Positions 1 through 7,093 of a stretch of DNA of 7,093 nt are shown here, piece by piece; position 1 is the stretch's first letter, and every line of letters begins with the position of its first letter. Below the pieces are notes generated by a model. The model was not told the DNA's origin. It did no database searches and saw only the letters and a list, made by a program, of their open reading frames with translations. The stretch lies in assembly GCA_029256485.1 (NCBI GenBank), contig JAQSXU010000164.1, forward strand, positions 1 to 7,093, written 5' to 3'. Source of the stretch: Clostridiaceae bacterium (lineage in GTDB: Bacteria > Bacillota_A > Clostridia > Clostridiales > Clostridiaceae). The position numbers and the translations under genes were made by a program.

Positions 1-81
1 TCCGAGTGGTCGAAGGAGCACGCCTGGAAAGCGTGTATAGGGGCAACTCTATCAGGGGTTCAAATCCCCTTCTCTCCGCCA
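1..81 (+). tRNA. tRNA-Ser(GGA), 5' end outside the window
   Basis: The 3' most of a class II tRNA is visible. The anticodon stem is 19-23 paired with 31-35, the 7-base loop is 24-30 and the anticodon GGA is 26-28, which reads serine codons UCC/UCU. A long variable arm follows (about 36-53), then the T arm with GGTTCAAATC, the 3' acceptor strand TCTCTCC (71-77), discriminator G78 and an encoded CCA (79-81). The first bases (acceptor 5' strand and start of the D arm) lie before the window. The 3' half from base 21 is duplicated at 6705, so this is the copy kept functional when an element integrated at the tRNA 3' end. Confidence 0.95.
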
Positions 82-82
82 C
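21..82 (+). repeat. Left attachment site (attL), 62-bp direct repeat
   Basis: Bases 21-82, from the anticodon stem to one base past the CCA, are identical to 6705-6766. After one mismatch (C83 versus T6767) four more bases agree. A perfect repeat spanning the 3' half of a tRNA is the usual footprint of site-specific integration by a tyrosine recombinase. Here it lies inside the intact tRNA, so integration left the tRNA working. The repeat is seen directly; the integration mechanism is inferred. Confidence 0.85.
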
Positions 83-133
83 CAGTGTTTTGAACACTTC
101 AAGGGGCGCTCCACTTTAAGGAAGCATGAAATT

Positions 134-184
134 ACTATACACGATTTTTGTTTGAAAATAGATGAAACGTGTGTAGTTTTTTTA
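134..184 (+). terminator. Rho-independent terminator of the tRNA-Ser gene
   Basis: The arms ACTATACACG (134-143) and CGTGTGTAGT (168-177) form a 10-bp stem with one G-T pair, followed by a T run (177-183). It lies 52 bases after the tRNA 3' end. The right-hand tRNA copy is also followed by a terminator with a similar ACACG/CGTGTG core. Confidence 0.8.
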
Positions 185-196
185 TCAATATATATA

Positions 197-225
197 TTGG
201 GATTAAAGTCTATTTATGGTACAAT
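197..225 (+). promoter_or_regulatory. Promoter of a beheaded gene
   Basis: TTGGGA (197-202) and TACAAT (220-225) are separated by 17 bp, and a TG at 217-218 makes an extended -10. The arrangement is close to a housekeeping sigma-A promoter. About 20 bp downstream is AGGAGAA (247-253), then a TTG codon at 259. It now transcribes into only a 7-codon frame and the 3' side of the IS110 remnant, against the transposase gene. Confidence 0.6.
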
Positions 226-246
226 TATGCTAGTTGTTATTTAAAT

Positions 247-282
247 AGGAGAATTAACTTGAAAGAAAAAACTCTAAATTAA
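247..282 (+). pseudogene. Start of a lost gene: RBS, TTG start and 7 codons
   Basis: AGGAGAA (247-253) sits 5 bases before TTG at 259. The frame reads MKEKTLN and stops with TAA at 280-282. The A run at 266-271 makes a single-base indel easy: one added A would open a lysine-rich frame continuing for some 19 more residues to about 338. A good promoter and a good ribosome binding site in front of almost nothing suggest the head of a gene whose body was removed. This is the place next to attL where an integrase often sits, but the few residues do not identify the product. A short leader peptide is the alternative. Confidence 0.4.
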
Positions 283-329
283 AGCATAACAATAAAACCC
301 AAACCGAACTTAAAAAAAAGAGTGGGCTA

Positions 330-347
330 TTTGAATGATGATTCAAA
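330..347. repeat. Small hairpin after the transposase stop codon
   Basis: TTTGAAT (330-336) and ATTCAAA (341-347) form a 7-bp stem with a 4-base loop, about 20 bases beyond the transposase stop. On the minus strand an eight-T run follows about 10 bases later (complement of the A run at 312-319). It may be a weak terminator or part of the insertion sequence right end. The exact end of the element cannot be placed because IS110 elements lack clear inverted repeats. Confidence 0.3.
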
Positions 348-368
348 ATTATATTTTATTAGATTTAG

Positions 369-1283
369 TTAAGGTGATATCTTATTGTCTGACCTGTGCG
401 AAATGTTGAAGCCTTTTGATTGTAGGAATAAAATCATTTTATCAATATTCCTATCTTGTGGCTTTGTAGCAGATTCTAAATATTTTTTGTAAAGAGATTC
501 ATCAAAAACTTCGTTGTTAGAGAGAATATTATAGATACAAGTCAAAAGCATTCTTGCAATTGCAATTATTGCTCGTTTGTGACCACGACGTTTTTTTATG
601 CTTTCATAACGATATTTGAAGTAAGGGCATGATTTATCTTTTATACAAGAATTTGCACATTGAATTAGTAAGGTTTTTAGATATACGCCAGCACGGCTTA
701 TGCGGACGCTTTTTTTCTTACCAGCACTTTCATTATTTTGAGGAGTAAGTCCAGCCCACGAGCACAGATGCTTTGCATCTGGAAATACGGACATATCAAC
801 TCCGATTTCAGAAATGATACCAGTTGCTGAATTAGATGTTATACATGGAACAGTTTCAATTAATTTTATATTAGTTTTATATCTCATTAAATCACGTAAT
901 TCGCGAATTTGCTTAGGAGGAATAAAACTTCCCCGTACCAAGCCATGCTTGTGTAAATCGGCAATCCATATAGAATCACGTTTATCAGTTTTTTTGCCAG
1001 GTATATTTTTAATAAATTTAGGGTTTGCTAAAGTAATTTTACAAGTAGTTTCAAGAACATTGTAGATTGAAATCCAGTATTTTCCTGTGCTTTCCATACA
1101 AACCTCATTACAATTATTGAGAGATATCCAATCTCTTAACTGTATCAAATCAGAAGTGAAAGTGTTGAATTGTTTAGTTTTATAAGTTGTGATGTTATTA
1201 ACGTCGGTAGCTGCAATAGTAGCTACAACAAACTTTTTATGGACATTAATTCCACAACTTATTTGATGAACTATTTTTAACAT
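369..1283 (-). pseudogene. IS110-family transposase, internally deleted and catalytically altered
   Basis: The 304-aa frame has an IS110 DEDD (RuvC-like) N-terminal domain and a C-terminal Transposase_20 domain. The N-terminus reads GINVHKK (11-17) where the family has GIDVHKK, so the first catalytic Asp is Asn13. The next acids are present: Glu64 in MESTGKYW, and Asp100 and Asp103 in KKTDKRD. The C-terminal domain shows SWAGLTPQNNESAGKKKS (175-192), which carries the serine-rich motif of the family. Between RYKTNI (about 134-139) and LIETVPCITS (141-150) roughly 100 residues of coiled-coil linker are missing in frame, near base 866; the family is usually about 400 aa. The helix-hairpin-helix, commonly close to PGVG, is eroded to PCITS. 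AAAGGTGAT (complement of 1287-1295) is a good ribosome binding site for the ATG at 1283. The frame is open but the enzyme is very probably inactive. Confidence 0.85.
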
Positions 1284-1350
1284 TTTATCACCTTTAAAAT
1301 AAAAAAATTAAGCACACAGACATTGACTGAATACCTAAGCTTTTAAACGG

Positions 1351-1368
1351 TCTTTGTTTAAACAAAGA
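1351..1368. repeat. Perfect 18-bp palindrome
   Basis: TCTTTGTTTAAACAAAGA is a perfect palindrome with no loop, between the candidate bridge RNA and the transposase start. It could be a protein-binding site at the insertion sequence left end or a third RNA hairpin. No T run follows on either strand, so a terminator is unlikely. Confidence 0.6.
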
Positions 1369-1370
1369 TT

Positions 1371-1500
1371 AACTTACGTGCTCGATGGCATACTTATTTG
1401 TGCTTAATAAGGTATTCGGCACATGTTATTATGCGGATTACAGTAGGTGTAATCACACTTACTCCGCCGTGCTCTGTAGTATGTCTGTATACTTGTCTTA
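1371..1500 (-). ncRNA. Candidate IS110 bridge RNA region
   Basis: The roughly 230 bp upstream of the transposase start have no gene but are strongly structured. Read on the minus strand, hairpin A has stem 1463-1467 with 1433-1437 and an inner stem of 1455-1458 with 1447-1450, extended by 1460-1462 with 1443-1445; it is enclosed by GCAC/GTGC (1469-1472 with 1419-1422). Hairpin B pairs 1406-1415 with 1390-1398 around one bulged base. IS110-group elements are known to encode, in the non-coding end before the recombinase, an RNA with two internal-loop hairpins that bind target and donor DNA. Position, length and two successive looped hairpins fit this. The ends of the RNA and the guide loops are not defined here. 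Expression is doubtful because the transposase is degraded. Confidence 0.45.
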
Positions 1501-1584
1501 ATTATTGACATAATTGAGATGTTTATACGAATAAATTTCATTAAATTTTGTGCCTTGAGCACAGCGAAAGGAATGATAGTTATT

Positions 1585-2019
1585 ATGAAAAAAAGAGTGA
1601 GTATAATTATATTATTAATTGCTGTGTTAGTAGTTATTTTGGGATACTATTTATATCCTAGGACTGGAACTTTGAATAGTTTTTTATCGAACAATTATAA
1701 TAAAGAAAATATAGAGCAAATTGAGATCAGAAGTACATATTCTGGACAAGATAAAACAGTTAAAGATAAAGATGAGATAAACAAAATTTTAGATAATGTT
1801 TCCAACATAAAATTAGTTCGGCATTATGGTAGTACAGAGAATAAAACAAAGGGTGCTATTCATATTTTCATTTACGATGAAAGCAGGATTGTTACTGAGA
1901 TTATTATACAGGGTAAAGAATATATTGATATCATCAATGACTATGATAACTCAAATAAAGAGTATAAAATCATTGATAATAGTTTAGATTTAGATTATAT
2001 AAATAGGTTAATTTCATAA
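1585..2019 (+). CDS. Small membrane-anchored protein, DUF5301-like
   Basis: The protein has 144 aa from ATG 1585. The N-terminus MKKRVS is followed by one hydrophobic segment (about 6-24) ending at YYLYP, giving a single anchor or uncleaved signal with the rest outside the membrane; no lipobox Cys is seen. The soluble part starts GTLNSFLSNNYNKENIEQIE and continues with a mixed alpha/beta pattern to the C-terminus, which resembles the clostridial DUF5301 family of about 150 aa, function unknown. I chose 1585 because AAAGGAA (1567-1573) lies upstream and the start gives a normal Lys-Lys-Arg membrane N-terminus; an earlier in-frame ATG at 1519 would add 22 unlikely residues. The gene ends 1 base before a terminator shared with the converging gene. 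Family assignment is from remembered sequence character, so moderate. Confidence 0.75.
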   Translation: MKKRVSIIILLIAVLVVILGYYLYPRTGTLNSFLSNNYNKENIEQIEIRSTYSGQDKTVKDKDEINKILDNVSNIKLVRHYGSTENKTKGAIHIFIYDESRIVTEIIIQGKEYIDIINDYDNSNKEYKIIDNSLDLDYINRLIS

Positions 2020-2020
2020 A

Positions 2021-2055
2021 AAAAATCAGCTAATATATTAAATTAGCTGATTTTT
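2021..2055. terminator. Bidirectional terminator between convergent genes
   Basis: A perfect 14-bp stem, 2021-2034 with 2042-2055 (core AATCAGCTAAT), encloses a 7-base loop. T runs follow on the plus strand (2051-2057), and the A run at 2018-2025 gives a T run on the minus strand. It serves the plus-strand membrane protein gene and the minus-strand gene ending at 2075. Confidence 0.92.
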
Positions 2056-2074
2056 TTATAAAATTAATCTAAAT

Positions 2075-2515
2075 CTAGACTTCTTGCCATCCTTTACCCT
2101 TAATATGGCATCTTACATAAACACTTTTCCCTGATATATAACGGATATCTCCACTATCTGTTGAAAATTCTATGAATGGAGTTCTTATTTCTATCAAATC
2201 ATATTGTGGATTGTCCTCAAAGAAATATCTTTTTTCTCTTAAGTCTTTATAACCTGCATTCATTAACCTTATAACAGTATCCTTTTCTGAATCAGATAAT
2301 AGGCCACTAACAAGACCTGCGCAGCATGATACTGCACCTGCAACAGTAGATAAAAGAAAAACTGATAAACAAGTGGAAACAGCTGAAAGCGATTTGCTTA
2401 ATTCAGCATTATCTAAATCTCCAGTTATATAATCAAACATTGCATCTTCTGCTCTTTCAATCTTTTTTAAGTCAGATAAACTTACTGTTATTTTTTCTGC
2501 ATATTCTCTTGCCAT
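2075..2515 (-). CDS. Unknown 146-aa protein with a central hydrophobic segment
   Basis: I do not recognise a family. The N-terminal 40 residues are charged and helical (MAREYAEKITVSLSDLKKIE). Residues about 45-73 are hydrophobic and small-residue rich, with three Cys (49, 64, 65), and could form one or two membrane helices or a helical hairpin. The C-terminal half (about 88-146) is polar and probably beta-rich, ending RCHIKGKGWQEV. GGAGAG (complement of 2525-2530) is 9 bases before the ATG, supporting this start. The gene stands alone on the minus strand, ends at the shared terminator, and has dyad operators about 100-140 bp upstream, so it may be a regulated cargo or lysogeny-type gene. The presence of both a hydrophobic centre and a polar tail would also fit a small effector, but nothing shows it. 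Confidence 0.75.
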   Translation of the reverse strand: MAREYAEKITVSLSDLKKIERAEDAMFDYITGDLDNAELSKSLSAVSTCLSVFLLSTVAGAVSCCAGLVSGLLSDSEKDTVIRLMNAGYKDLREKRYFFEDNPQYDLIEIRTPFIEFSTDSGDIRYISGKSVYVRCHIKGKGWQEV

Positions 2516-2589
2516 GTAAATACACTCTCCTTAAATTAAATTGTGTGAGGTCATTTGATGTTAGCTAACTCATCTGCTCTACATTTATT

Positions 2590-2595
2590 ATTATA
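2590..2595 (-). promoter_or_regulatory. Candidate -10 for the minus-strand gene
   Basis: On the minus strand TATAAT (complement of 2590-2595) lies 75 bp before the start codon. No good -35 is found at 17 bp. The dyad at 2618-2632 lies just upstream, where an activator or a repressor could act on it. Confidence 0.35.
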
Positions 2596-2617
2596 AAGCA
2601 TTCAACTTTTAATTTCT

Positions 2618-2654
2618 TATAGTTTGTCTATAGATTACTTATAGTTTTTCTATA
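2618..2654. promoter_or_regulatory. Two tandem dyad operators, 22 bp apart
   Basis: TATAG-N5-CTATA occurs at 2618-2632 and again at 2640-2654, each a perfect 5-bp inverted repeat. The surrounding 17 bp (2616-2632 and 2638-2654) agree at 16 positions. The period of 22 bp is about two helical turns, putting two dimers on the same DNA face. TCTATA recurs once more at 2677-2682. They lie between the minus-strand unknown gene and the plus-strand sigma remnant, the layout of a divergent regulatory region. No regulator gene with an obvious DNA-binding domain for them is intact next door. Confidence 0.6.
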
Positions 2655-2718
2655 ATTTTTATATCATATTTTTGTGTCTATAAATCATGTGATTTAATAA
2701 ACAGATAAAAAGAAATAA

Positions 2719-3189
2719 AAAGATATTAGTAATAATAAACTTTATAATAGCTGTATAAGCCTTGATGTAACATTACAGTCAGAGGAAGATATACAACTAA
2801 AGGATACTGTTGAAAGTATTGATTATGGCTTTGAGAATGTGGAAGAAAAGATTTATATTCAGCAGCTAAGAGAAGAATTAGAGGATGCAATGCTAGATAA
2901 TAATACTTTAAAGGAAAGAGAGATACTGCAGCTCTGCTATGGGTGGGATTATCAAAAGATATTTACATATAAGGAAGTAGCGGAAATTCTAAGTATAAAC
3001 TTTAATAGCATTCCTCAAATAGAATTTAATGCACTTAGAAAGCTAAGAAATAGCGCCTGAGGCAAAGATAGAGTTAAAGAGTATATGAGAGACAAGATTA
3101 AAGTTATACAGGAATGCTCAAGATATAACCAGGATAAAGCCATAGATAAAATTAATCTTATAGATAAATATTTTAATGGGGTGATGTAA
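2719..3189 (+). pseudogene. Phage-type sigma-70 factor remnant (regions 3-4)
   Basis: The frame opens after a stop at 2716 with no start codon or ribosome binding site. From about 2740 it reads KLYNSCISLDVTLQSEEDIQ, matching the stretch before sigma region 4 (SLD-P...ED..L.D). Next comes EEKIYIQQLREELEDAM, LKEREILQLCYGW, then the region 4.2 helix-turn-helix FTYKEVAEILSINFNSIPQIEFNALRKLR. A TGA at 3058-3060 interrupts it; the same frame then stays open for 42 codons (GKDRVKEYMRDK ... DKYFNGVM) to TAA 3187. The N-terminal core-binding regions are absent and the -35-recognition helix has unusual residues (IPQIEFNAL for RVRQIE.KAL). A GTG at 2839 has no ribosome binding site, so a short functional protein is unlikely. 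Clostridial prophages carry such sigma-like genes beside late regulators, as here. Confidence 0.75.
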
Positions 3190-3579
3190 TTGGATCGCAA
3201 AGATATATTTGAACAAACTAAGAAAGATTTGAAGGCATTTAAAATAATAGTTACAAGATTAAAAACCAGTAAATCAACATTAGAAAAGGATACTTTATTA
3301 AGTGATGAAGAAAAAAAGTTACTTGAAAGAAAAATAAAATTAGATGAAATTAAGATTGGCAAAATAAAAGCAGCATTGGAATTCTTAGAAGATACAGATT
3401 TAAAAATAATAACATCTATATTCTTTGAAAAAGTAACCAATAAGGATATGGCGGCTCAATTAAATGTATCTAAAGAGTTTATAAATAGACACAAAAGAGA
3501 ATCTACTGAAAAAATAGCTGATATAATGTATGGACATTTAGTGGGAAGTAATTTTAGTAGTTCTTATTTACAGGGCTAA
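3190..3579 (+). CDS. Phage late-gene regulator, RinA/ArpU-like
   Basis: The 129-aa protein starts at TTG 3190 directly after the TAA of the sigma remnant. GGGGTGAT (3178-3185) serves as ribosome binding site, so the two were translationally coupled. Residues about 1-65 are charged helices with coiled-coil character (LLSDEEKKLLERKIKLDEIK). The C-terminal part (about 75-118) is a sigma region 4-like helix-turn-helix: LKIITSIFFEKVTNKDMAAQLNVSKEFINRHKRE. Small proteins with this build, RinA and ArpU relatives, activate packaging and lysis genes in phages of Gram-positive bacteria. No terminase or lysis gene follows; a terminator does. It may be a relic, or a satellite-type link to a helper phage. 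Exact subfamily is uncertain. Confidence 0.75.
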   Translation: MDRKDIFEQTKKDLKAFKIIVTRLKTSKSTLEKDTLLSDEEKKLLERKIKLDEIKIGKIKAALEFLEDTDLKIITSIFFEKVTNKDMAAQLNVSKEFINRHKRESTEKIADIMYGHLVGSNFSSSYLQG

Positions 3580-3630
3580 GACAAAACTATATAAAGAGGT
3601 TTTAAAAACTACATAATACGATTTTGTTAT

Positions 3631-3660
3631 AACATCTATAGAAATATAGGTGTTTTTGTT
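3631..3660 (+). terminator. Terminator after the phage regulator gene
   Basis: AACATCTATA (3631-3640) and TATAGGTGTT (3645-3654) form a 10-bp stem with one G-T pair and a GAAA tetraloop, followed by a T-rich tract. It ends transcription 50-80 bases past the regulator stop and insulates the DUF4062 gene. Confidence 0.85.
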
Positions 3661-3676
3661 ATATTTCTGTAATTTA

Positions 3677-3705
3677 TAGGAGGAATTTTCCTACTTTTGT
3701 ATAAT
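3677..3705 (+). promoter_or_regulatory. Promoter and possible operator of the DUF4062 gene
   Basis: TATAAT (3700-3705) is a perfect -10, 19 bp before the AT-rich leader meets the ribosome binding site. The -35 position has no good hexamer; instead it holds an inverted repeat TAGGA-N7-TCCTA (3677-3693). A weak -35 covered by a dyad suggests regulated transcription. The -10 is seen; the control is inferred. Confidence 0.5.
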
Positions 3706-3736
3706 ATTTATTTATACAGGAGGGATGGGATTTCAC

Positions 3737-4717
3737 ATGGCGAAAAAGAAACTTCAGATATTTATATCATCAACATATTTGGATTTAGAAGAAGAAAGGC
3801 AAGCAGCCGTTGAAGCGATACTTGGTTCAAAACATATACCGGCCGGGATGGAATTATTTAGGGCAGGAAATACATCTCAATGGGATGCAATTAAAGGATG
3901 GATAAATGAATCAGATATCTATATGCTTATTCTAGGTGGTAGATATGGAAGTATAGAGATTCAATCAGGAAAAAGTTATACCCAACTTGAATATGAATAT
4001 GCTATAGAGAGAGGTATACCGGTATTCGCTGTTGTATTAACTGATCAGTTTTTATTTAAAAAAGCAGTTGATATTACTAAAGAGAAAGTTTTTGAGATTG
4101 AAAATACAGATGCTTATAACGAATTTAAGAAATTTGTAGAAACTAAAATAGTTAGATACGTGGATGATTGCAAAGATATACAAATAGCAATAAAGGATTC
4201 AATATCGGAATTAGAAGATCAATATAGGTTAGTCGGTTGGGTAAGATCATCAGAAATGGATGATTATACAAGCCTAATAAGAGAAAATAATAATTTAATT
4301 AAAAATAACAACAATTTGGAAAAAGATAATGATAGATTAAAAAATCAAATTAAAAAAGTTAAAGAAAGTTCAGGGAACGATATTGAAAATATATTGCAAG
4401 AAAGAAAAGGAAATAGGGTATGCCTTATAATGGAATTACTTGATGTTTCAATACTTACAAAAGAAGAAAGAAAAGAAATTAAAAAATACATAGCTGATTC
4501 GATAGCTGATAAAAAGCAGATAATTTCGGCATGTAGTTATAGTGGATATAGTTATGCAGAAGATGATAATTATATTCACGCAACTTTTGATGGTTTTTGG
4601 ATTAGTAATCAAGCAAGAAATTATTTAGCAGACGAAACAAAGAAATTAATTGTTGATTGGCTGAAACAATATAGTTATGATATCAATTGCGAAATTAAGA
4701 CTGAAATGATATGGTAA
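3737..4717 (+). CDS. DUF4062 domain protein with coiled coil
   Basis: The protein has 326 aa from ATG 3737. Residues 6-96 are a clear DUF4062 domain: LQIFISSTYLDLEEER (6-21), GMELF (37-41), W55 to SDIYMLILGGRYGS (59-72), and SYTQLEYEYAIERGIPVF (80-97). DUF4062 is a Rossmann-like fold akin to TIR and is found alone or fused to NACHT/STAND ATPases, including animal NWD1-type proteins; its function is mostly unproven. Residues about 176-216 form an Asn/Lys-rich coiled coil, probably for oligomerisation. The C-terminal 100 residues match nothing I know and may sense a ligand. No ATPase domain is present. I prefer 3737 because AGGAGG (3718-3723) touches the ATG at 3725, leaving no spacing, and MAKKKLQIFISS is a typical family start; 330 aa from 3725 is possible. 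The gene is flanked by terminators on both sides. Confidence 0.85.
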   Translation: MAKKKLQIFISSTYLDLEEERQAAVEAILGSKHIPAGMELFRAGNTSQWDAIKGWINESDIYMLILGGRYGSIEIQSGKSYTQLEYEYAIERGIPVFAVVLTDQFLFKKAVDITKEKVFEIENTDAYNEFKKFVETKIVRYVDDCKDIQIAIKDSISELEDQYRLVGWVRSSEMDDYTSLIRENNNLIKNNNNLEKDNDRLKNQIKKVKESSGNDIENILQERKGNRVCLIMELLDVSILTKEERKEIKKYIADSIADKKQIISACSYSGYSYAEDDNYIHATFDGFWISNQARNYLADETKKLIVDWLKQYSYDINCEIKTEMIW

Positions 4718-4723
4718 TATACT

Positions 4724-4750
4724 GAACTCTAGAAATAGGGTTCTTTTATT
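4724..4750 (+). terminator. Terminator between the DUF4062 and DUF5677 genes
   Basis: GAACTCTA (4724-4731) pairs with TAGGGTTC (4736-4743), one G-T pair, around a GAAA tetraloop. TTTTATT follows. It starts 6 bases past the stop codon, so the two cargo genes are not simply one operon. Confidence 0.82.
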
Positions 4751-4775
4751 ATATAAAGGGGATTAATCATTTATG

Positions 4776-4801
4776 TAGAATATTTTACTTTATGGAAGGG
4801 G
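4776..4801 (+). promoter_or_regulatory. Candidate -10 and strong RBS of the DUF5677 gene
   Basis: TAGAAT (4776-4781) is a possible -10 about 28 bp before the start codon; no convincing -35 is present. GGAAGGGG (4794-4801) is an extended ribosome binding site 7 bases before ATG 4809 and fixes this start. Confidence 0.4.
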
Positions 4802-4808
4802 CAAAATA

Positions 4809-5627
4809 ATGAAGGAAGAAGAATTTTTAAAGAATATAATGCCAGATATAGAAGAATATTTAATACAAAACAATAGACCAGTTATTATAATGCAAGGGTA
4901 TGAATGGTTTAGAGAAGTGATTACATTATATGCGAAACAACATAATTTGTTAGAGGCTGCAATTGTATTAATGGATAATGGTATGAATGAAGAAGCTTTG
5001 ATTATAGCTAGATCAGCTATGAATAATTATTTTTTGATAGGATATTTATTGGATGATGACACTAATCGAAGTAGATTAAAAGAATATCAAAGTCAACCAC
5101 TAATATCCCAAAGATATCTACTTAAAAATATGAAGGATATGATTAATGGTGATTTTGGAGCGAGATTGAATAAAACCAGTATAACATTACCATATACAAT
5201 TAGTGATTTAGAAAATAAAATCAATGAAACAGAAATTAAAATTGTAGCAGAAGGATTTTCAAAGAATATTACACCATTATCGATACGTAAATTGGCAAAG
5301 GAATCAGATGTGCAGGGGTTTGATTTTTATGCTGCATATTATGGTGAAGCTAGCAAATTTGAACATTCAGATATATCAAGTTTAAATATATATAAAAAGG
5401 CTATAGATCAGCAAACTTCAGTAAACGATGCATTTATTATGGATTTAAATAGAACCGATGAAAAATTAAAAGAAAAAATATGTGCAATGTTTATTATAAG
5501 TTATTTGGATTCTTTTACGAAAATATGTAATGTAATAGCAAATAAGGAACCTCAATTGCAAGTAAATTATAATATAAATAAACTATCAGAGATGTTGATT
5601 AAAGTATTGGCGTGTATGCAAAAATAG
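4809..5627 (+). CDS. DUF5677-like all-helical protein
   Basis: The 272-aa protein is soluble and largely helical. The N-terminal part (20-66) includes YEWFREVITLYAKQHNLLEA and a helix leading into EEALIIARSAMNNYFLIGYL (61-80), matching the family pattern of an Arg-Ser helix followed by an aromatic/hydrophobic helix. The second hallmark is Y178-x3-S182-x3-H186 in YYGEASKFEHSD, like the Tyr/Ser/His motif late in DUF5677 proteins. The spacing of the two motifs and the length fit the family. The activity of the family is not known; a HEPN-type RNase has been a natural guess for such helical proteins, but the RX4-6H motif is not seen. It is the middle gene of the cargo trio, with its own start signals and with terminators before and after. 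Confidence 0.75.
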   Translation: MKEEEFLKNIMPDIEEYLIQNNRPVIIMQGYEWFREVITLYAKQHNLLEAAIVLMDNGMNEEALIIARSAMNNYFLIGYLLDDDTNRSRLKEYQSQPLISQRYLLKNMKDMINGDFGARLNKTSITLPYTISDLENKINETEIKIVAEGFSKNITPLSIRKLAKESDVQGFDFYAAYYGEASKFEHSDISSLNIYKKAIDQQTSVNDAFIMDLNRTDEKLKEKICAMFIISYLDSFTKICNVIANKEPQLQVNYNINKLSEMLIKVLACMQK

Positions 5628-5665
5628 TTTTAAAAGATTGTGTAAATAATATATCATTAATTATG

Positions 5666-5700
5666 AAGGTATTCATCCATAAGATGAGTATCTTTATTTC
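5666..5700 (+). terminator. Terminator after the DUF5677 gene
   Basis: AAGGTATTCATC (5666-5677) and GATGAGTATCTT (5683-5694) form a 12-bp stem with two G-T pairs and a 5-base loop, followed by TTTATTTCT. It separates this gene from the next promoter. Confidence 0.82.
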
Positions 5701-5704
5701 TAAT

Positions 5705-5750
5705 ATGTATATACAAGCAATACAATATATACTTAGAAATATGCTATAAT
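5705..5750 (+). promoter_or_regulatory. Promoter with upstream dyad for the third cargo gene
   Basis: TATAAT (5745-5750) preceded by TG at 5742-5743 is a perfect extended -10. TACAAT (5721-5726) would be a weak -35 at 18 bp. It lies in a dyad GTATA...TATAC (5707-5711 and 5728-5732) within a 28-bp segment that recurs at 7025-7052 with four mismatches. A factor bound there would cover the -35. Confidence 0.6.
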
Positions 5751-5805
5751 CATTGAATAAATAGTAGAAATTTCTTGAATTATTATAGAATTGGAGAGCA
5801 AAAAT

Positions 5806-6552
5806 ATGTATAGTGACAAAGAATTGGATTTAATAAAAACATATGGAATACCTAAAAAATACGAAATTTTATCAAAGTTTTCACATAAAATAGTTAGAAA
5901 TATATCATTTGAATTTGGTGAAGCGCCTGGAATACCAGTAATATATGATCCTCCAAGAATAATTTATGGGGGAAGTTTTTATAGTAAAAATAATACTTCT
6001 AGAAATGGGCAAAAAGGAAATTACGAGTTAGTAGCAGAAATCGAAGATATAATATTGCAAGAGGAGTGTAAAGCATTAGTTGTTAGGGGAGAATCATTCT
6101 ATGGAAAAAGAGCCGAAAACTGCATTAATGTCATTTACTTCAATGAGTTGAGAGAAGACGTGGTGGTTTGGGCACCAACATTTAAAGAATTATTCTTAGA
6201 ATTAGCGAGTGATGAGAGTGTTGAAGATTCCAACAGATTGCATTATGAAATAATGGAGAAAGTATCATGTAAACTTGGGGAACTGAAGACAATGGAAGAA
6301 AAAAGACAGATTAATATGAATGAAATAATTGAAGAATACAGTGGCGAGAACTCCTGGGTAGTAAAATATGAACTAGGGTTTTCATTAGATTCAAGATTAT
6401 ATCATTCAATTATAAAATCTATAATGATTTCTGAAGATATAAAATATCCCAAAGGGGAAGGTAGAAAAAGGATTTTAAAAAGTTACTATGATTTAGTTAT
6501 AAATAAGATGGACATTGATAAATGGGAAAAAGAATATAAATTATGGAATTAG
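5806..6552 (+). CDS. Unknown 248-aa cargo protein
   Basis: No family is recognised with confidence. The protein is soluble, with no signal or membrane segment. The first 135 residues look alpha/beta, starting MYSDKELDLIKTYGIPKKYE (1-20), with a Gly/Pro-rich stretch (38-56) and ending VVWAPTFKELFLELA (120-134). A GIP near the start and a TFKELFLEL helix near the end of such a domain recall SUKH/SMI1-type immunity folds, but this is weak. The rest (140-248) is mainly charged helix, ending in EKEYKLWN. I chose ATG 5806 because GGAGAG (5793-5798) lies 7 bases ahead; an upstream in-frame TTG at 5791 overlaps that site and cannot be the start. It has its own promoter and is the last full gene before attR. 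If the module is toxic or abortive, this could be its partner or antidote; that is inference. Confidence 0.8.
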   Translation: MYSDKELDLIKTYGIPKKYEILSKFSHKIVRNISFEFGEAPGIPVIYDPPRIIYGGSFYSKNNTSRNGQKGNYELVAEIEDIILQEECKALVVRGESFYGKRAENCINVIYFNELREDVVVWAPTFKELFLELASDESVEDSNRLHYEIMEKVSCKLGELKTMEEKRQINMNEIIEEYSGENSWVVKYELGFSLDSRLYHSIIKSIMISEDIKYPKGEGRKRILKSYYDLVINKMDIDKWEKEYKLWN

Positions 6553-6692
6553 TTTATTTAAGTTTTTTTATTTCCTTCAAAATGTTGACATTAATATCAC
6601 AAAAGTATACTATTAATGACAATAACATCGTGAAGATATTTGAGAATAAGAATCGTGCGAAGGCTCAGAAATACAACGCTTCTAGCTTATAA
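6543..6692 (+). pseudogene. Short basic frame next to attR, possible gene tail
   Basis: An open frame overlaps the end of the previous gene and reaches TAA 6690-6692, 12 bases before attR. Its possible starts (ATG 6543, ATG 6582, GTG 6630) have no ribosome binding site. The last part reads NNIVKIFENKNRAKAQKYNA and is more GC-rich than its surroundings, like the retained C-terminus of a longer protein. Tail ends of integrase genes often lie this close to an attachment site, but the residues do not prove that. It may also be chance. Confidence 0.3.
6585..6613 (+). promoter_or_regulatory. Promoter-like TTGACA-N17-TACTAT facing attR
   Basis: A perfect -35 (6585-6590) and a 4/6 -10 (6608-6613) lie 17 bp apart. 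No gene start follows. Transcripts would cross the truncated tRNA copy and end at the terminator at 6808-6857. This may be an old promoter or chance in AT-rich DNA. Confidence 0.4.
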
Positions 6693-6704
6693 TTTTTTTA
6701 TTTG

Positions 6705-6766
6705 CGCCTGGAAAGCGTGTATAGGGGCAACTCTATCAGGGGTTCAAATCCCCTTCTCTCCGCCAC
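6705..6766 (+). repeat. Right attachment site (attR), truncated tRNA-Ser copy
   Basis: This is a perfect copy of 21-82, from inside the anticodon stem to one base past CCA. The 5' half of the tRNA is missing (the preceding base is G6704, not A), so no tRNA can fold. It marks the far end of the integrated element. The perfect identity suggests recent integration or selection on the repeat. Confidence 0.85.
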
Positions 6767-6807
6767 TAGTGCTTAGGTGTGCTTCACCTTTTGAGATATA
6801 AAAATTA

Positions 6808-6857
6808 AGTCACACGTTTTTTAGTGAAAAATATTCAAAACGTGTGATTATTTTTTT
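6808..6857 (+). terminator. Original tRNA-Ser terminator beyond attR
   Basis: CACACGTTTT (6811-6820) and AAAACGTGTG (6837-6846) pair perfectly; three more pairs (one G-T) extend the stem to 6808 and 6849. A seven-T run follows (6851-6857). At 43 bases from the CCA it is placed like a tRNA terminator and is probably the one that served the gene before integration. Confidence 0.88.
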
Positions 6858-6872
6858 ATGTAATTGATAATT

Positions 6873-7080
6873 ATGATATTTGGATATATGAGAATAAGTA
6901 CACATCTATTTTTAAACATAAAAAGTTTGAGAAGAAGAAGGGTGCAGAATATCTTTTATTGCTGGAGATAATTGTACAAATGACATTATTAAAATCTTCA
7001 TATTCATATTTAATAATGTATTACATGTATATACTGGCAGTACAATCTATACATGTTTTTATTTAGTAATAAAATAAGTT
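6873..7080 (+). pseudogene. Serine recombinase (resolvase/invertase) remnant
   Basis: ATG 6873 opens MIFGYMRIST, the N-terminus of small serine recombinases, where the family has [YF]GY.R[VI]ST with the catalytic Ser at the end of that strand. The frame then ends at TAA 6969. After the ST, residues expected to hold the .DQ...Q motif are missing. Another frame just downstream reads KKFEKKKGAEYL and a third reads FIAGDNCTNDIIKIF, together resembling the next strand and helix broken by frameshifts. No ribosome binding site is seen. It is a decayed fragment outside the tRNA repeats, so it belongs to the chromosome or to an older neighbouring element. Only the first 10 residues are convincing. Confidence 0.5.
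7024..7055. repeat. Long dyad similar to the site before the third cargo gene
   Basis: CATGTATA (7024-7031) and TATACATG (7048-7055) are perfect 8-bp arms. Between them is a second small dyad, TAC-TGGCA-GTA (7032-7042). The 28 bp at 7025-7052 match 5705-5732 at 24 positions. A DNA-binding or recombination site is possible. Confidence 0.5.
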
Positions 7081-7093
7081 TATTTTTAGTTAA

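Follow-up and report, generated by a model that had tools for sequence, protein, structure and literature searches.

A predicted Swarozyc-type NADase gene with a rare C-terminal tail in a probable prophage remnant at a clostridial tRNA-Ser gene

We analyzed a 7,093-nucleotide stretch of DNA from a Clostridiaceae bacterium (assembly GCA_029256485.1, contig JAQSXU010000164.1, positions 1 to 7,093; 28.8% G+C), hereafter called the window. An original prediction, made from the sequence, had proposed that three adjacent accessory genes in it, namely, a DUF4062 gene, a DUF5677 gene, and a third gene that we refer to as the ORFan, form a candidate defense module. All three genes proved to be real. 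Our analysis indicates, however, that the window probably represents the remains of a prophage, or an island of phage origin, located at the 3′ end of a tRNA-Ser gene, in which the DUF4062 gene is a solo NADase gene of the Swarozyc type with a rare sensor tail and the DUF5677 gene and the ORFan are separate cargo. This reading is supported by the match of the DUF4062 protein to KpSwz, the conservation of its residue E85, the presence of one cluster of heads and 15 clusters of tails among its relatives, the order of genes in prophages that carry such relatives, and the absence of co-occurrence of the DUF4062 and DUF5677 genes.

According to a May 2026 preprint (PMC13174449), DUF4062 is a TIR-like NADase, and single bacterial DUF4062 proteins protect Escherichia coli from phages, in a system named Swarozyc. 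The preprint describes how the C-terminal auxiliary domain (AUX) of KpSwz, which is of the winged helix-turn-helix type, binds the phage portal protein and thereby switches on the destruction of NAD+, so that sensing by AUX and killing by the NADase are combined in one protein that needs no partner. Hydrolysis of NAD+ in response to the portal, with abortive infection, is demonstrated in that work, and realignment of the stalks is the authors' proposal.

The DUF4062 protein of the window aligned with the KpSwz chain in the PDB (entries 10wc, 11cq, and 11cv) both on its own, over residues 3 to 205 (E = 9.6e-27), and through a family profile (E = 5.6e-41) built from 26 of the 120 relatives listed, out of 4810 relatives found. 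Residue E85 is invariant across these 26 aligned relatives, and in both alignments it faces an alanine of the deposited KpSwz chain whose position fits the E97A mutant. We therefore took this alanine to be the E97A site and E85 to be the counterpart of the catalytic glutamate; judged by these alignments, the window protein is predicted to be an NADase of the same kind as KpSwz. Both proteins are 326 residues long in the versions compared, and both consist of an N-terminal enzyme, a helical stalk, and a C-terminal domain. The reading frame has a second in-frame ATG at position 3725.

A structural model of the window protein was confident across most of residues 1 to 165 and in the core of the stalk, which forms a long helix at residues 178 to 222 (predicted local distance difference test [pLDDT] scores of 75 to 86 in the core and <50 at the end). 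TIR domains were prominent among the Foldseek matches of this model (best E = 5.9e-4). The TIR-like character and the coiled coil proposed for this protein in the original prediction were thus borne out, the latter as a coiled-coil-like stalk, and the proposed lack of an ATPase held as well, since no ATPase family matched the protein. The proposed role of the DUF4062 gene in defense is very likely. The protein also matched phrog_15411, a family of phage proteins of unknown function, over residues 3 to 308 (E = 2.9e-61), so DUF4062 proteins as long as this one had been recorded in phage genomes before. This family is unnamed, and the match probably lies mostly on the conserved head, as the tails differ.

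It is in the tail, which extends beyond the Pfam domain, that the window protein departs from KpSwz. Residues 213 to 326 had no sequence match in the PDB, KpSwz included, and the portal protein is not established as the trigger of the window protein. When we clustered heads and tails separately, using 179 DUF4062 proteins with a usable tail (206 collected, 197 of them with a near-complete head, and 27 dropped in all; duplicates such as L008 and L120 were kept), the heads formed a single cluster, whereas the tails fell into 15 clusters (124, 36, 5, 2, and 2 members and ten singletons). The window tail differed in cluster from those of most DUF4062 relatives and grouped with only one other protein, P0005, which is 52% identical to the window protein over its full length; the cluster thus accounts for 2 of the 179 tails. 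Since the tail has no PDB match and belongs to so small a cluster, the claim of a new C-terminal domain holds. These comparisons show that the interest of the system lies in variation of the sensor tail rather than in the neighboring genes. A more tentative proposal, which we regard as possible but doubtful, is that in clostridial prophages, Swarozyc-type NADase genes lie next to the prophage's own packaging genes and have their sensor swapped while the enzyme stays nearly fixed, that the rare sensor of the window protein recognizes a different phage component, and that the remnant still guards its host.

We next considered where relatives of the DUF4062 gene occur. They were found in 6 of 68 Clostridium-like genomes (the genus of G178) and in 13 of 200 Clostridiaceae genomes, and 13 of the 14 loci from both searches were examined (that of G519 was left out). 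In five of the 13 Clostridiaceae loci (L120, L121, L123, L152, and L153), the DUF4062 gene lies upstream of the terminase gene, with 0 to ~6 genes between the two, and in four of these five (L121/L010, L123, L152, and L153), a phrog_36-type regulator gene is located upstream of DUF4062. The regulator gene is directly upstream in L152 and, save for a tRNA-Asn gene, in L123. This tRNA-Asn gene (L123:1935-2005) lies just ahead of DUF4062 within a prophage-like region. Two IMG/VR contigs (L009 and L027) likewise carry DUF4062 just ahead of the terminase gene, and in L122, the gene is found near tail genes. The window resembles the prophages with the regulator in having a late-regulator-like gene directly upstream of DUF4062, which matches the prophage order, and differs from them in that the genes that follow are gone: no terminase, portal, capsid, tail, lysis, or integrase gene was recognized with Pfam and PHROGs among its eight main open reading frames (ORFs). 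As part of the overall reading, the regulator-like gene and DUF4062 are therefore probably what is left of an order of late regulator, DUF4062, terminase, and portal.

The position of DUF4062 between the late regulator and the terminase gene in four of the 13 Clostridiaceae loci could also mean that the gene serves the phage's own late program, for example, by controlling NAD during packaging, rather than anti-phage defense. We consider this improbable, because DUF4062 occupies other positions in the remaining loci, because family members are described as protecting cells as lone genes (PMC13174449), and because relatives also occur on plasmids (184 records, including 164 from Staphylococcus), where no phage late program is expected. 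DUF4062 ahead of terminase as a general phage rule was ruled out: the 63 downstream neighbors drawn from 33 of 79 viral loci (four from L008 and one or two from every other locus) included baseplate genes as often as terminase genes.

Some of the loci had features of their own. Three Clostridiaceae genomes (L148:6072-7013, L149:6001-6954, and L150:6148-6843) encode DUF4062 proteins with an extra, helical-looking N-terminal segment, all in one conserved chromosomal setting with neighbors that by eye are Nudix-like and MBL-fold-like, unlike the mobile copies. In L124:1-3896 (G453 contig 43), DUF4062 is followed by a gene for a 473-residue protein whose start is SIR2-like by eye but without a Pfam match, and the pair is flanked by two very similar fragments of a gene that resembles a sirtuin-type deacetylase gene, as if it had been inserted in that gene. 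Two DUF4062 genes were found within a few kilobases of each other on a phage contig (L009:1059-3334), a plasmid (L026:1-5101), and a second phage contig (L029:4157-8975).

The layout of the window agrees with the tRNA island setting that had been proposed for it (Table 1). The left end is a tRNA-Ser(GGA) gene, positions 1 to 81 being 100% identical to the tRNA-Ser of the Clostridia genomes G278 and G178, and the 3′ end of this gene is repeated at the far border as a direct repeat of 70 bp with 97% identity (positions 21 to 90 versus 6705 to 6774). ARAGORN called no tRNA anywhere in this stretch, a result that presumably reflects the start of the tRNA lying beyond the window edge. The native chromosomal flank of the tRNA-Ser gene had no convincing match among the 10 loci compared. 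Between the repeats lie, in order, the IS110 transposase gene, ORFs 1519-2019 and 2075-2515, the sigma fragment, the late-regulator-like gene, DUF4062, DUF5677, and the ORFan.

Table 1. Positions of features in the window
Feature	Position	Strand	Basis or remark
tRNA-Ser(GGA) gene, left end clipped by the window edge; likely left attachment site	1..83	+	tRNA match
IS110-family transposase, internally shortened, 304 residues	369..1283	-	NF033542, PF01548
Sigma-70 region 4 fragment, 5′-truncated remnant	2839..3060	+	PF04545, E = 3.5e-9
Phage late-transcription-regulator-like protein, 129 residues	3190..3579	+	PHROGs
DUF4062 protein, 326 residues: TIR-like NADase domain (predicted), 1 to ~165; stalk, 178-222; C-terminal domain, ~213-326	3737..4717	+	PF13271, E = 2.2e-28; start ATG 3737
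Terminator-like hairpin and T-run after DUF4062	4724..4743	+	-9.4 kcal/mol, z = -2.4
DUF5677 protein, 272 residues, nearly all helical	4809..5627	+	PF18928, E = 4.2e-19
Strong hairpin and U-rich stretch after DUF5677	5663..5697	+	-15.9 kcal/mol, z = -4.95
ORFan, 248 residues from ATG 5806 (253 from TTG 5791)	5806..6552	+	ORF length
Second, incomplete tRNA-Ser, running from the anticodon stem to the 3′ end; likely right attachment site	6705..6774	+	Repeat match

Several of these genes appear decayed. The IS110 transposase matched NF033542 in two stretches (E = 2.7e-54), the better of which places residues 138 to 257 on positions 219 to 342 of the 343-position model, and residues 10 to 138 fit PF01548; these fits suggest that roughly 80 residues are absent from the middle of the protein. 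The reading frame is nonetheless still open. Three-frame translation showed that the open frame upstream of the sigma fragment is just short. The late-regulator-like ORF matched phrog_36 (E = 1.2e-6), phrog_351 (E = 6.9e-7), and phrog_248 (E = 2.8e-4), and its matches to ArpU (0.036) and RinA (0.096) fell below the cutoff. The phage features noted in the original prediction are thin, consisting of the regulator-like ORF and the sigma fragment, with no integrase or structural gene recognized among the eight ORFs. This lack, together with the shortened transposase and the truncated sigma fragment, supports reading the window as a remnant. No family was assigned to ORFs 1519-2019 and 2075-2515 with Pfam or PHROGs. 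These ORFs are convergent, and the very strong hairpin between them (positions 2015 to 2060; z = -7.4) is probably a two-way terminator.

Turning to the proposed module, the three genes are adjacent and on the same strand, with gaps of 91 bp and 178 bp, as would be expected if the DUF5677 protein and the ORFan product sensed for, restrained, or extended the DUF4062 enzyme in a true three-component system. Hairpins, however, separate the genes. A consensus terminator scan that covered both strands of the region reported two sites, versus 0.5 expected, and although it did not report the hairpin after DUF5677, none of 200 shuffled sequences produced one as good. Promoter-like sites (21, compared with 23.7 in shuffled sequences) were not enriched, so promoters give no evidence.

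DUF4062 and DUF5677 were also not found together at any of 153 loci, a count that comprises 12 loci with DUF5677 (10 distinct places) and 115 with DUF4062 (91 distinct proteins) and leaves out the contexts of P0005 and of the closest DUF5677 relatives (70 to 77% identity). Flank lengths varied between a few kilobases and 16 kb, and the total reached 8 kb or more for 82 of the 115 DUF4062 loci, so a distant partner could have been missed. Of five whole genomes with DUF5677, two also carry DUF4062, on other contigs as numbered. On the grounds of the hairpins and the absence of co-occurrence at these loci, we rejected an operon of the three genes. With no partner gene in the examined flanks of any of the 10 DUF5677 places or 115 DUF4062 loci, no relative of the ORFan found, and KpSwz able to sense and kill on its own (PMC13174449), a three-component system is highly improbable. 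A lack of co-occurrence elsewhere, which the original prediction had itself named as grounds for refutation, thus held for the loci that could be searched. The evidence is against a module, and the suggestion that the neighbors supply sensing, effector, or immunity functions was not supported. The DUF5677 gene and the ORFan instead appear to be cargo beside the attachment site rather than subunits of the DUF4062 enzyme.

The DUF5677 protein is possibly HEPN-like. RX4-6H is the ribonuclease motif of HEPN proteins. Four columns, R68, N73, E185, and H186, are invariant in 48 DUF5677 sequences, and no invariant arginine precedes H186 by 4 to 6 residues in this set. The protein thus differs from members of the HEPN superfamily, including AbiV (9bj6) and AF_0298 (2hsb), in that its invariant residues do not form this motif, and its structural model had no PDB match in Foldseek at an E value of ≤0.001 (best E = 0.5). 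In two differently named genomes, a GmrSD-type gene is followed after 13 bp by DUF5677 (L002:6176-8849 and L003:6176-8849), a pair that is a candidate two-gene defense operon. In Sporosarcina, a SIR2_2 gene precedes DUF5677, with a small terminase gene alongside (L005:5373-8813). In a further locus (L006:589-3430), DUF5677 lies beside two convergent genes, one for an AAA_21 ATPase and one for a 210-residue partner that is RloB-like by eye, in a record that has parA-like genes.

Such neighbors would also fit a tRNA-anchored defense island, in which selection has gathered independent defense genes that each act alone and the phage-like genes are incidental. The DUF5677 relatives adjoining GmrSD and SIR2_2 genes argue for this alternative, as does the report that more than half of bacterial DUF4062 homologs adjoin a homolog of a defense gene (PMC13174449). 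The DUF4062 gene, the DUF5677 gene, and the ORFan are moreover all intact among decayed genes, which could mean that selection has kept this cargo and that it was not left over at random. Nevertheless, the order of regulator and DUF4062 is that of prophages, and no tested defense role for DUF5677 was found in the literature searched. PADLOC, for its part, returned just MzaA, on the sigma fragment through the sigma-like end of MzaA (E = 2.2e-5), and NDT_II-A, on the DUF4062 protein (E = 0.061). We therefore consider a defense island of this kind rather unlikely.

Besides the intactness of the three genes, other observations weigh against a prophage remnant with a Swarozyc-type enzyme. Two ORFs separate the regulator from DUF4062 in L121 and L153, and the late regulator was not recognized in L120 (which is the same as L008). 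In eight of the 13 Clostridiaceae loci, DUF4062 is not ahead of terminase as far as the examined flanks reach, and the closest locus, L119 (80% identity over the first two-thirds), had no packaging gene by eye in 12 kb. In addition to the absence of PDB sequence matches for the tail, the tail model was of low confidence, with pLDDT blocks of 42 to 72, and the phage tests in the preprint involved just five DUF4062 proteins whose auxiliary domains are similar, all in E. coli (PMC13174449). Lastly, since no intact relative of the island was found, we infer that the phage body was removed by deletion, as we do the independence of the three genes.

The ORFan is taken to be a real gene because of its length relative to Markov controls, a ribosome-binding-site-like stretch, and low G+C at third codon positions. 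The longest ORF in 1000 first-order Markov sequences modeled on positions 5628 to 6704 was 163 codons, versus 248 for the ORFan, and the start at ATG 5806, which is preceded by TTGGAGAGC, is likelier than that at TTG 5791. Nothing exceeded curated cutoffs in Pfam (Qua1, E = 0.0031; Herpes_BDLF2, E = 0.039) or PHROGs (best E = 0.078), and PADLOC and NCBIfam gave no matches. No relative was found among 5.8 billion proteins, in plasmids, or in viral contigs sharing one short ORFan pattern. Of 200 Clostridiaceae genomes, 14 gave matches at an E value of ≤10 and none at ≤0.001; of 12 weak matches that were rescored, three reappeared, with partial alignments (by eye, two membrane proteins and, in L136, an ImmA/IrrE-type protein), and were taken as chance. 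The same applies to matches to histone H2B in the PDB (best E = 0.0042). A likeness to SUKH/SMI1 around WAPTFKELFLEL, noted by eye, was supported by no tool.

By analogy with KpSwz, the DUF4062 protein would form an autoinhibited oligomer at rest. A superinfecting phage would then make a trigger protein that is bound by the C-terminal domain, the stalks would realign and activate the TIR-like domains, and hydrolysis of NAD+ would cause the infected cell to halt phage production through abortive infection.

The finding falls within the defense family described in the 2026 preprint (PMC13174449). It also draws attention to DUF5677, a small family of accessory genes that are possibly HEPN-like and that adjoin GmrSD and SIR2 genes in relatives. 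Finally, it raises the question of how a prophage can encode a suicide enzyme that responds to phages, next to its own packaging and portal genes, without triggering that enzyme itself.

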